34,443 nucleotides of DNA from Euryarchaeota archaeon Ods01 (GTDB lineage Archaea; Halobacteriota; Halobacteria; Halobacteriales; Halorutilaceae): contig JAQZCZ010000010.1 of assembly GCA_028751095.1 (NCBI GenBank), forward strand, positions 1 through 34,443. The letters run 5' to 3'. This document shows positions 2,584 to 6,212 of the stretch, piece after piece (positions within the stretch are counted from its first letter, which is position 1; the number at the start of each line of letters is the position of its first letter). The position numbers were made by a program, and so were the translations under genes. The notes beneath the pieces are model-generated. The model searched no databases. It was given only the letters and a program-made list of their open reading frames with translations, and had not been told where the DNA came from.

Positions 2584-3186
2584 ATGAACGTCACCGACGA
2601 CTATCCCGACAGCCCTTTCCGCACGACCGGCACCGACCACGTAACCGTCTGGGGGAGCAACCCCGACAACGTACTGTCGTTCTACCGTGACCTGTTGGGA
2701 ATGCGCCTCGTCCTGCGCCAACCCAACCTCGATGACCCCTCCCAGACACATCTGTTCCTCGACACGGGCGACGGTACCGTTCTTACCTTCTTCGTCAACG
2801 AGGGGCGCGACGCCCACGCCGGTCCACAGCGTACGAACGTCGGCGCTGTCCACCATCTCGCCTTCTCTTTCGAACCCGAGCGTTTCGCCGACGTAGCAAA
2901 GGCGCTTGACGACGACGGGCGCGGCTACAACGTCTTCGACCGCGGCATCTTCCAGTCTCTCTACACGCGCGATAACGACGGCTTAATCGTTGAACTCTCG
3001 ACCGACAAGTACGGTATACCTGACGAACGCCGCGCCGAGGTCTTGGCGACCACCCAACGGATACGTGAGGAGGACGGCGCAGATTACGCCGAAGACGAAC
3101 ACCTGCGTGCCGCCCTCGAAGAGCTGGGTATCGACGCCGAACCCCGCGAGATACCCGACGCACCGAGCGGGGTCGGTGACCTCTAG
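2584..3186 (+). CDS. VOC family (glyoxalase/dioxygenase-like) protein
   Basis: This 200-residue protein holds one vicinal-oxygen-chelate module (residues ~15-140) followed by a charged C-terminal extension. Visible candidate metal ligands are His19 (TDHVTVW), His91 (VHHLAF) and Glu137 (GLIVELSTD), the 2-His-1-carboxylate pattern. The stretch SLYTRDNDGLIVEL resembles ring-cleavage dioxygenases and related VOC enzymes. The substrate cannot be read from the sequence. The ATG at 2584 is chosen because the in-frame region upstream overlaps the cspA promoter. Its stop codon interlocks with the stop of the convergent SCP2-type gene through CTAG at 3183-3186. Confidence 0.82.
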   Translation: MNVTDDYPDSPFRTTGTDHVTVWGSNPDNVLSFYRDLLGMRLVLRQPNLDDPSQTHLFLDTGDGTVLTFFVNEGRDAHAGPQRTNVGAVHHLAFSFEPERFADVAKALDDDGRGYNVFDRGIFQSLYTRDNDGLIVELSTDKYGIPDERRAEVLATTQRIREEDGADYAEDEHLRAALEELGIDAEPREIPDAPSGVGDL

Positions 3187-3926
3187 AAGATGTACCGCGT
3201 CTCAGTCTCCGCAGAGACGCCGGCGAGACGCTGAGCCGCTTCGGCGTACTCCATCACACGGTTCATGTCTCCTTCGAGTTCGAGCTTACCGCTCATGATA
3301 AGCTGAATCGGGTCGCTTCCCTCGATAAGCTCCTTCCAGTCGTCGTACTCGCCGTGTATCACGAAGGCGGCGTCCGACTCCTCGCGCGACTCAACCATCC
3401 CAACCTCGGTGCAGTCGCCGCGCTCCAGACCGATATGTGCGTACACGGTGTCCTCGTCGACCTTCTCGTCTAACTCCGTCATCAGCCTGTCCAACTGCGG
3501 CGGAAGCGCGTCTTCGAGAGCCGCGGGCATCTCGTCGCTCGCGTCTTCGAGAGCGGGGTCTTCGTCGAAGAACCCCTCGGCGTCTTCGAGAAGTCCACGT
3601 ACATCGTCGGGGAGCGACTCCACGATTGCGTCAGGAACCTCATCGGTCAGCGCGTAAACCGGAGCCTCGCCGTACTCGTCGATGAGCGTGTCGCGTGCCC
3701 CGTCGTCTACCTCCGACCAGACCTCGTCGGGTACCTTTCTTAGCTCCAGAAGTTCGTCGGGAAGGTCCGAAACGGTGTGTTCGTCGAGCGGAAGCCCCCG
3801 TATCTCGAAGACGAAGTCTCCGTTCCATCCGTCACCCCATTCGGCGGCGTGTTCGGCGTACTCGTCGTCCTCGTTTATCGCCTCACGGTACAGTTCGAGC
3901 CATTCTACGGTAGGAAACCACGCCAT
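3183..3926 (-). CDS. SCP2-type (sterol carrier-like) lipid-binding protein, paralog A
   Basis: This 247-residue acidic protein begins AWFPTVEWLELYREAINED and ends with a region resembling the SCP2 fold: EYDDWKELIEG, then the dipole LIMSGKLELEGDM followed by a final helix. SCP2 domains bind fatty-acyl or other hydrophobic ligands in a tunnel; haloarchaea lack sterols, so the ligand is probably an isoprenoid or acyl compound. The middle ~90 residues are a helical acidic segment. It is clearly paralogous to the protein at 9479-10267, which shares the opening WFPTVEW, the EIRG/DxPxDE segment and the closing ETRYIF. No signal peptide or membrane segment is seen. It overlaps the VOC gene by 4 nt at the 3' end. 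Confidence 0.7.
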   Translation of the reverse strand: MAWFPTVEWLELYREAINEDDEYAEHAAEWGDGWNGDFVFEIRGLPLDEHTVSDLPDELLELRKVPDEVWSEVDDGARDTLIDEYGEAPVYALTDEVPDAIVESLPDDVRGLLEDAEGFFDEDPALEDASDEMPAALEDALPPQLDRLMTELDEKVDEDTVYAHIGLERGDCTEVGMVESREESDAAFVIHGEYDDWKELIEGSDPIQLIMSGKLELEGDMNRVMEYAEAAQRLAGVSAETETRYIF

Positions 3927-4086: not shown

Positions 4087-4674
4087 ATGTCAGTTCCCGA
4101 CGACATAGACCGTTACTTCGAGATGTCGGACGAAGAGCTAAAGCAGAACCTTCCGGAGCTTCTCGACGCGCTTGCGGACGACGTAGAGGCTCTCGTCGAG
4201 GAGCGTGCCGAAGACGTGCCCCGTCTCCTTAGCCGCCTCGACTCGACAGACGTTGAGGGTTTCGCCAACGACGCGCCCGAGGTCGCTGAGGAGTTTCAGG
4301 ACTTCCTCTGGGATGCGACGAGCGCTCTCGTGGACCGCGACGAGGAGCTACAGCAGAATATCACGCAGAGCGCGACGGTCAACTTCGAGGCGACCGACTC
4401 GCCGATGGAGGGTCATCTCGAAGTTGACGCCGACGCCGGAGCGCTCGAAGGCGGCGCGGGAAACGTTGACGGCGCGGACCTCAACATCACCGGACCCTCG
4501 AATACGCTCGCTGGCATGCTGACCGGCTCGACCGACCCTGTGCAGGGGTTCATGGCGGGCGAGTTCGAGATGGACGGCGACGTTGATACAGGCATGGAGC
4601 TAGCGTCGGTGATTACTCCCGTACACGAACGCCTTAACCGGTACGGCGACGAGGAGGGCGACGAGGACGACTGA
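4087..4674 (+). CDS. Small SCP2-domain protein with helical N-terminal region
   Basis: Residues 1-90 of this 195-residue protein are predicted helical and acidic (SDEELKQNLPELLDALADDVEAL). Residues ~95-190 look like an SCP2 lipid-binding domain, with ADLNITGPSNTLAGMLTGS, DPVQGFMAGEFEMDGDVD and a terminal helix. The second phrase corresponds to the conserved core of SCP2 (dp...ml.GkikveGD). It differs from the two longer paralogs in the window and has no FPTVEW opening. It lies divergent from paralog A across a 160-nt gap with no clear TATA box and is followed after 78 nt by the repeat protein on the same strand, so the two may be co-transcribed. Its ligand is unknown. Confidence 0.65.
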   Translation: MSVPDDIDRYFEMSDEELKQNLPELLDALADDVEALVEERAEDVPRLLSRLDSTDVEGFANDAPEVAEEFQDFLWDATSALVDRDEELQQNITQSATVNFEATDSPMEGHLEVDADAGALEGGAGNVDGADLNITGPSNTLAGMLTGSTDPVQGFMAGEFEMDGDVDTGMELASVITPVHERLNRYGDEEGDEDD

Positions 4675-4752: not shown

Positions 4753-5580
4753 ATGTCAACTGAAACAAGCGAGATAACGATACGTCTGGAGGGGGAAGGG
4801 AGCGAACAGATGGCTGACGAGGTCCGCAACGCAGTTGTCGAGAGGCTTTCGGACGACGACGCCGATGCCTTCGTCCGCGATACCACCGACGCAATCTCGG
4901 GAACTGCACGCGACGGCGGCTTCTCCGACGAGGTTGTGGTCGACGTTGCGTCTTCGATAAGCGCGTCTGTCGAAGAGGGGGGCTACTCCGACGAACTTGT
5001 CGAAGAAGGCGCTGACACCATCTCCGAGACTATATCTGAGAAGGGACACTCGGAGGCTCTCGTCGACGGCGTCGGCGACGAAATTGTCCGTCTCTTACAA
5101 GGACCTAAGTCGGACGAGATTGTTCAGGAGGTTGCCGATATCATCATCGCACGCCTCCCGGGTGTGCGCCGTGTCGGTATGCTCCGGCGCGCTATCAAGA
5201 AGGTCGCCGACAAGCTACTCGGCAAACGCGCCGACCTCGTCGTTGCGGACGTAGGCGACGTAATCGTTGACAAGATAGTCAGCGAAGGACACGCCGACGA
5301 GATGGTCGAAAATACGCTTTCGATAGCCGCTGATGAGGTTATCGAGGGCGACGACTCGCACGCTCTCGTCCATGCCCTCCTTCTGATGGCGGCTCACGAG
5401 ATAGTTGAACAGGACGCGTCGGACGAGGTCGTCGAGAACGCAATCGAGGACCTCGCCGAGAGGTACGTCGATGAAGACGCGTCCGAGGAGTTCGTTGAGG
5501 GGACCGCCGACGCCTGCTTCGACAACCTTTCGAAGGAGGATATCGAGGAAATCGCGTCGAGGCTCGACGACGGGACCTAG
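4753..5580 (+). CDS. Hypothetical protein made of ~12 helical 20-21-residue repeats
   Basis: I do not recognise a family. After a short N-terminal strand-like stretch (residues 1-16), almost the whole 275-residue protein is a tandem repeat. Units begin at residues 17, 37, 58, 79, 100, 120, 160, 181, 202, 223, 244 and 264, i.e. every 20-21 residues, with one basic insert at ~136-159 (GVRRVGMLRRAIKKVADKL). Each unit starts (S/A)-(D/E)-x-hydrophobic-Val, has hydrophobic residues at unit positions 4, 5, 9, 12 and 16, and ends in a Gly/Asp/His turn such as EGGY or SEGH. This suggests one amphipathic helix plus a turn per unit. It has no signal peptide or membrane segment. It follows the SCP2 gene on the same strand, and its TAG interlocks with the stop of the convergent esterase (CTAG at 5577-5580). 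Confidence 0.8.
   Translation: MSTETSEITIRLEGEGSEQMADEVRNAVVERLSDDDADAFVRDTTDAISGTARDGGFSDEVVVDVASSISASVEEGGYSDELVEEGADTISETISEKGHSEALVDGVGDEIVRLLQGPKSDEIVQEVADIIIARLPGVRRVGMLRRAIKKVADKLLGKRADLVVADVGDVIVDKIVSEGHADEMVENTLSIAADEVIEGDDSHALVHALLLMAAHEIVEQDASDEVVENAIEDLAERYVDEDASEEFVEGTADACFDNLSKEDIEEIASRLDDGT
4753..5580 (+). repeat. Protein-level tandem repeat with ~60-63-nt DNA period
   Basis: The repeat is visible in the protein as (S/A)(D/E)-x-(L/V/I/M/F)-V-x(3)-A/V-x(2)-I at 20-21-residue spacing from about base 4801 to 5560. At DNA level the units have diverged, sharing codons for the SDE-LV start but not long identical stretches, so the array is old and not a recent slippage expansion. The spacing breaks once, between the units starting at residues 120 and 160. 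Confidence 0.75.
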
Positions 5581-6212
5581 ACCAGCCTGTCGAACAGCCC
5601 TGCGACGTACTCCTTTTCGTCCCTGTTGACCGTGTGTCCCATGCCTTCGTAGATACGTTTCTCGACCTCGGCTCCGAGTGCCTCGAAGACATCCGCGGTT
5701 ACGTCGACGCGCTCGACGGGTATATGCGGGTCACGGTCGCTACATCCGACGAAGAACGGTGTACCTCTGAGGTCACCCTCGTAGTCGCCCGTCTCGACCT
5801 TCTCGCCTATCAGACCGCCGCTGAAGGCGACGACGCCTCCGTAACGACGTGGACTGCGCGCCGCGTACTCGGACGCGAGACACGCGCCCTGTGAAAAGCC
5901 GAGGATGACGACGCGTTCGACCGGGACGCCGCCGTCGCGTGCGGCGTTGACCGCGCTTCCGACGGCACGTAGACCCGAAGACCGCCCGGGTTCGTTCATC
6001 TCGACCGGAGCGAGGAACGACTCCGGATACCACTCGTTCCCCTCTGCCTGCGGCGCGAGATACGCGACTCCTTCGCGGTGGAACGTTTCAGCGAGGCGGA
6101 TGATGCTCTCGGCGTCCGCTCCGCGTCCGTGTACCAGAACCGCCGCCGCTTCCGCCTTGTTGAGTTCGGTTCCCGCTGTAACGAGCGGCTGGCTGGCGTG
6201 AGGGTCTTCCAT
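5577..6212 (-). CDS. Phospholipase/carboxylesterase-family alpha/beta hydrolase
   Basis: This 211-residue hydrolase has the small-esterase layout: oxyanion region AVLVHGRGA (residues ~24-32), nucleophile elbow GFSQGA with Ser107, Asp161 in SDRDPHIP and His193 in GMGHTV. These form a complete Ser-Asp-His triad of the Abhydrolase_2 (phospholipase/carboxylesterase) family. It should hydrolyse carboxylic esters or thioesters of short to medium acyl chains; the natural substrate is unknown. It has no signal peptide, so it is cytoplasmic. Its 3' end overlaps the repeat protein by 4 nt. A TATA-like box lies 22-28 nt upstream of the ATG, back-to-back with the promoter of the membrane protein at 6282. 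Confidence 0.88.
   Translation of the reverse strand: MEDPHASQPLVTAGTELNKAEAAAVLVHGRGADAESIIRLAETFHREGVAYLAPQAEGNEWYPESFLAPVEMNEPGRSSGLRAVGSAVNAARDGGVPVERVVILGFSQGACLASEYAARSPRRYGGVVAFSGGLIGEKVETGDYEGDLRGTPFFVGCSDRDPHIPVERVDVTADVFEALGAEVEKRIYEGMGHTVNRDEKEYVAGLFDRLV

Follow-up and report, generated by a model that had tools for sequence, protein, structure and literature searches.

A haloarchaeal family of acidic helical-repeat proteins with arms of matched length about a basic central unit

The gene at positions 4753–5580 of the window (the whole 34,443-nucleotide stretch analysed, contig JAQZCZ010000010.1 of Euryarchaeota archaeon Ods01) encodes a tandem-repeat protein that is symmetric about a central unit, a feature that the preliminary description of this DNA could not see. 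At the level of sequence, the family to which it belongs displays a unit of 21 aa, a central LPGxR motif and basic unit at all chain lengths, parallel growth of the two arms, and opposite residue sizes in the two arms at unit positions 9 and 12. Our main reading, to which we assign a probability of roughly 0.4, is that these are soluble, acidic cytoplasmic proteins of single-helix units, with matched arms that pair with each other about the basic centre, and that they act as a scaffold in lipid or acyl-CoA metabolism. Our confidence that the repeat, the central unit and the family are all real is high; it is moderate for the pairing of the arms and low for the cellular role. The features of the window that bear on this are the following.

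3183–3926, minus strand: second SCP2-domain gene, divergent, with a long N-terminal part (Pfam SCP2, E 1.5e-10)
4087–4674, plus strand: SCP2-domain lipid-binding protein just upstream of the repeat gene (Pfam SCP2, E 2.2e-8)
4753–5580, plus strand: tandem helical-repeat protein gene (ATG start, 275 aa, 13 units, net charge −50, pI 4.05)
4753–4800, plus strand: N-terminal extension, aa 1–16, containing ITIRLEGEG (from alignment)
4801–5169, plus strand: N-arm of six units, starting at aa 17, 37, 58, 79, 100 and 120 (profile segmentation, AlphaFold2)
5155–5169, plus strand: LPGVR motif, aa 135–139, its LP nearly invariant across the family
5170–5229, plus strand: central basic unit, aa 140–159, RVGMLRRAIKKVADKLLGKR, charge +7 (segmentation; missing from the earlier list of units)
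5230–5577, plus strand: C-arm, units starting at aa 160, 181, 202, 223 and 244 and a short last one at aa 264 (segmentation, AlphaFold2)
5577–6212, minus strand: convergent carboxylesterase-like alpha/beta hydrolase (Pfam Abhydrolase_2, E 1.1e-18)

When the 275-aa protein is compared with itself, similarity is highest at lag 21 (z 8.3), followed by lag 20 (z 5.1). The period of 21 residues (z about 8–9) compares with a maximum of 4.9 at any lag in 500 shuffles, confirming this ORF as the repeat protein it had been taken for. The unit starts proposed earlier (17, 37, 58, 79, 100, 120, 160, 181, 202, 223 and 244) were recovered by profile segmentation, which used those starts as seeds and the whole family for training; the last unit, at aa 264, is short, went unscored in the segmentation and is a predicted helix in the AlphaFold2 model. 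The accompanying count of about 12 did not stand, because the interval between aa 120 and 160 holds two units, which makes 13. The unit that had been passed over (aa 140–159) has hydrophobics at the usual positions and a polar face that is basic. Across the family the hydrophobic unit positions are 4, 5, 8/9, 12 and 16, and those given for this protein (4, 5, 9, 12 and 16) were correct, also for the added unit. No DNA-level tandem repeat of the 21-aa unit remains in the window gene, so the expansion of units is old.

The central unit is the sole positive stretch of the protein, at +8 in 25 aa, the best value elsewhere being −2. The N-arm leading up to it terminates in the conserved LPGVR, and the place of the N-terminal extension is taken in longer relatives by (Y)xIxF in the alignment. 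AlphaFold2 predicts one helix per unit with short turns between, 13 helices in the window protein and 19 in its 404-aa paralogue L002. Those of the window protein lie at aa 15–31, 35–54, 59–76, 79–96, 100–115 and 120–134 in the N-arm, at 146–155 in the central unit (mostly with pLDDT under 50), and at 160–177, 181–198, 202–219, 224–240, 244–258 and 261–274 in the C-arm. The models thus consist of repeated helices, in support of the helix and turn per unit that had been expected, at low confidence: pLDDT is 59.3 and 57.9 and pTM 0.37 and 0.34 for the two proteins, from alignments of 21 and 11 sequences, respectively. Given this low confidence we used their secondary structure alone, and infer the packing discussed below. 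Foldseek searches of the PDB with both models returned no match with E below 0.001.

The window's genome (1.87 Mb in 133 contigs, 89% complete) encodes two paralogues, L002 and the short L003 (130 aa). Genome G002, of the same genus, has an orthologue at 71% identity along with a 405-aa form and a short form, and G003, of the same family, has forms of 276, 361 and 447 aa, the first two in tandem, as well as two short forms. Halorientalis forms are about 170–200 aa long, with a tandem pair in some species. Among the several hundred genomes sampled (394 at the level of the order, 394 at that of the phylum and 148 from the family including Halorientalis), just two groups yielded relatives, Halorientalis and haloarchaeal MAGs belonging to the window's family, and a short-form query over 295 genomes led to the same lineages again. 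A contig scan with the window protein alone as query found no relative; with the combined alignment it found a contig of G003 (MAG Ods02) and two Halorientalis species. A tblastn search against plasmids yielded no relative, and a search of one literature collection turned up no paper on haloarchaeal SCP2 or on Halorientalis repeat proteins.

In each of the 21 members the LP dipeptide falls close to the midpoint of the chain. Chain lengths before and after it are 135/140 in the window protein and 135/138, 132/144, 175/186, 197/208, 197/207 and 219/228 in other long forms, about 89/90–105 in most Halorientalis forms and about 64/64 in the short forms. Expressed in units, and counting the short last C-arm unit, three of the long proteins are 6+1+6, one is 8+1+8, two are 9+1+9 and one is 10+1+10, and the Halorientalis forms are 4+1+3 (the a-forms) or 4+1+4; the last C-arm unit is only 10–16 residues long, and several members become 6+1+5 or 10+1+9 if it is left out. 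The two AlphaFold2 models, whose helices number 6+1+6 (window protein) and 9+1+9 (L002), follow the same arrangement. An earlier idea of ours, that copy number changes only in steps of 42 aa, was dropped, since there are arms with 8, 9 and 10 units.

In alignments the short forms match the central units of their longer relatives, which suggests a common core from which the arms were extended. Two tandem paralogues of one genome, L007a and L007b, differ by two units in each arm. The best placement of the extra units, counted from the centre, is N 5–6 and C 4–5 from L007a to L007b, N 5–8 and C 4–7 from L007a to L013, and N 3–4 and C 3–4 from the Halorientalis protein L029 to L007a. The best-scoring insertion sites are thus inside each arm and at a similar distance from the centre; other pairs are less clear. 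Were single units gained at random on either arm, the chance of equality in all classes would be about 0.006 (independent classes) to 0.035 (nested classes), an estimate drawn from about five size classes in few genomes; we take the equality of the arms to be suggestive, with chance still a possible explanation.

The units of the two arms also differ in type. In the window's family, position 12 is large in 40 of 40 N-arm units against 3 of 43 in the C-arm, position 9 is large in 7 of 40 N-arm units against 38 of 43 in the C-arm, and position 17 is polar in most N-arm units and V or I in those of the C-arm (units not counted are the LP unit, the central unit and the first unit of each arm). Halorientalis repeats the pattern: position 9 is small in all 16 N units and large in all 16 C units, and position 12 is large in 16/16 N units and G or A in 13/16 C units. 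The units counted at positions 9 and 12 are related to one another, and p-values for them are descriptive. These complementary sizes fit a packing of the arms on each other; two founder units in place of pairing could give a similar pattern. Within the arms of L010 and L013, and most clearly within the C-arms, similarity at lag 42 is as high as at lag 21 or higher, so neighbouring helices differ as well.

The window protein has no confident match in Pfam or NCBIfam, and none to TPR, HEAT or ARM, which bears out the statement that no named family has this unit; the family is undescribed in the libraries searched. DUF445 (PF04286) came nearest, with sub-threshold matches in 7 of the 21 members (best E 1.2e-5; best paralogue score 25.9 bits against a Pfam cut-off of 33.8; no match for the window protein). 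Membership was rejected: hhalign against true DUF445 proteins of these genomes gave a probability of 0.2% (E 0.36), DUF445 has hydrophobic membrane segments that the repeat family lacks, and we judge the match compositional, since the model also matches unrelated EETVSDTV repeats of other haloarchaea. Matches to DUF2267 and FtsJ were likewise judged compositional. As a separate observation, haloarchaeal proteins (L077, L079, L080, L081 and L082) have an N-terminal hydrophobic stretch followed by long arrays like EETVSDTVSKEVEETV, which trigger the DUF445 model below its cut-off. The only low-E matches of a sequence-profile search of the PDB were designed repeat proteins (8cwy, 5e-6; 5cwb, 2e-4).

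Turning to the gene neighbourhood, the spacing of 78 nt between the upstream SCP2 gene and the repeat gene had been given correctly. A T/A-rich stretch lies in this gap about 25–30 nt before the ATG and is weakly similar in G002, so separate transcription is possible. The upstream SCP2 gene is kept in G002, where the alpha/beta hydrolase was not found beside the orthologue. On contig C69 the short paralogue is the last gene of a cluster in the order SCP2, acyl-CoA dehydrogenase, 4HBT thioesterase and short repeat gene (L091:1825-4437); the opposite strand carries an AMP-binding acyl-CoA synthetase-like gene. In a similar cluster of G003 the short repeat gene and SCP2 are about 3 kb apart, and the SCP2 proteins of the short-repeat clusters are 65% and 70% identical to that of the window. 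In G002 an acyl-CoA dehydrogenase adjoins the short form, no SCP2 or thioesterase gene like those of the cluster was seen at that locus, and a TnpB-like transposon gene (by eye; L094:3604-4923) adjoins the repeat gene there. SCP2 thus lies near repeat genes at two loci in G000, one in G002 and, within about 3 kb, one in G003.

Retention of the SCP2 neighbour, raised as a question in the preliminary description, is therefore found within the genus and, as an SCP2 of the same subfamily, in the cluster of the short paralogue; it fails in Halorientalis, whose SCP2 genes lie elsewhere, so that the link is confined to the window's family. Halorientalis repeat genes (L051:6065-9056 and L028) adjoin phytoene synthase and DUF7553, in a neighbourhood that by eye holds further carotenoid-type genes; DUF7553, too, is helical, and it has a weak match to an apolipoprotein-like profile. 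Directly upstream of long repeat paralogues in three genomes, on the same strand, lies a protein with no Pfam match that ends in GFLSRIF or GFLGLF (L092:3434-4120, plus; L010:490-1215, plus; L096:7786-8070, minus, cut by the contig end); it is a probable partner.

An antiparallel packing of the arms would most simply explain why the basic centre is fixed, the arms equal, the insertions mirrored and the unit types complementary. The chain would turn at the LPGxR motif and basic unit, and the helices of the N-arm would lie antiparallel on those of the C-arm, knob into hole; arms packed in this way would have to gain units together. The pairing may be intramolecular or may join two chains as an antiparallel dimer, and the data are compatible with either. 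The tip formed by the basic unit probably contacts something anionic, which may be membrane head groups, acyl-CoA, nucleic acid or an acidic partner. More tentatively, and going by its gene neighbours, the protein might serve as a scaffold or spacer for lipid and acyl-CoA proteins such as the SCP2 encoded beside it and, with the short form, also acyl-CoA dehydrogenase and thioesterase. Hinge proteins of the SMC/Rad50 type have two matched arms that pair antiparallel around a central hinge. The likeness would extend at most to this working principle: the repeat arms are chains of short helices and not continuous coiled coils, ATPase heads are absent, and no sequence relation was found.

A possible objection is that these proteins are ordinary alpha-solenoids, in which hairpins of consecutive helices (a 42-aa repeat) form one superhelix, as in TPR or designed repeat proteins, the basic unit being a decoration or kink and the equality of the arms a coincidence. 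The lag-42 signal of L010 and L013, that is, alternating unit types, and the designed proteins among the PDB matches speak for it, and the family shares with alpha-solenoids (PMC11514114) and designed repeats its tandem short helices, tight turns, variable copy number and A/B alternation in some arms. TPR units, however, have two helices in about 34 aa (PMC11514114), whereas this family has one in about 21 aa, a constant centre and joint growth of the arms; a solenoid would not lead one to expect equal arms in all long forms, mirrored insertions or opposite N- and C-arm residues, arms of nine units are odd in number, and Pfam searches gave no TPR, HEAT or ARM match. On balance we find this explanation possible and somewhat doubtful.

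A coat on a membrane or lipid droplet, built of amphipathic helices like those of exchangeable apolipoproteins or perilipins, is unlikely. It would suit the single hydrophobic stripe of each unit and the SCP2, acyl-CoA, phytoene synthase and DUF7553 genes nearby, and the units resemble the amphipathic units of about 22 residues of exchangeable apolipoproteins (PF01442). ApoA-I also pairs antiparallel about a central helix. Yet the window protein gave no match to the Pfam family Apolipoprotein A1/A4/E at E up to 1 (nor did the members at E up to 0.01), its polar face is almost purely acidic, it is prokaryotic and has no signal peptide by eye, and the arm-specific residue sizes suggest packing against protein. 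By the standard lipid-binding discriminant for amphipathic helices, 11 of the 12 scored units are negatively charged and predicted to fall below the cut-off of 0.68; as the central unit alone passes (2.49), lipid coating by all units is improbable, and the lipid-facing scaffold first suggested is not supported, though high salt could weaken the charge argument. Phasins are helical proteins bound to polyhydroxyalkanoate granules, and PHA synthase is present in Halorientalis and G003; a phasin-like role is nonetheless very improbable, because the only PhaC match in G000 is weak and sub-threshold and G002 (92% complete) has none, both genomes being incomplete and both carrying long and short repeat genes. 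Binding of DNA or RNA by the basic hinge, with acidic arms that mimic or repel nucleic acid, would make sense of a single patch of +7 to +8 in a protein of −50, and seems to us quite unlikely: the protein lacks a nucleic-acid domain and a consistent nucleic-acid gene context, and its recurring neighbours concern lipids and acyl-CoA.

Should the arms pair as we propose, the family might present a new architecture, an array of single-helix units arranged as a hairpin or antiparallel dimer about one basic unit, with arms of complementary unit types that lengthen or shorten in step, giving haloarchaea an acidic scaffold of adjustable length with a charged tip; we hold this tentatively, at somewhat less than even odds. 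Unlike the open-ended solenoids usually described, such a protein would have its length adjusted by adding units in concert to either side of a constant centre, and it would lend itself naturally as a template for the design of hairpin arrays of any length. For the haloarchaea themselves, it would place a structural component beside their little-studied SCP2 and acyl-CoA genes.
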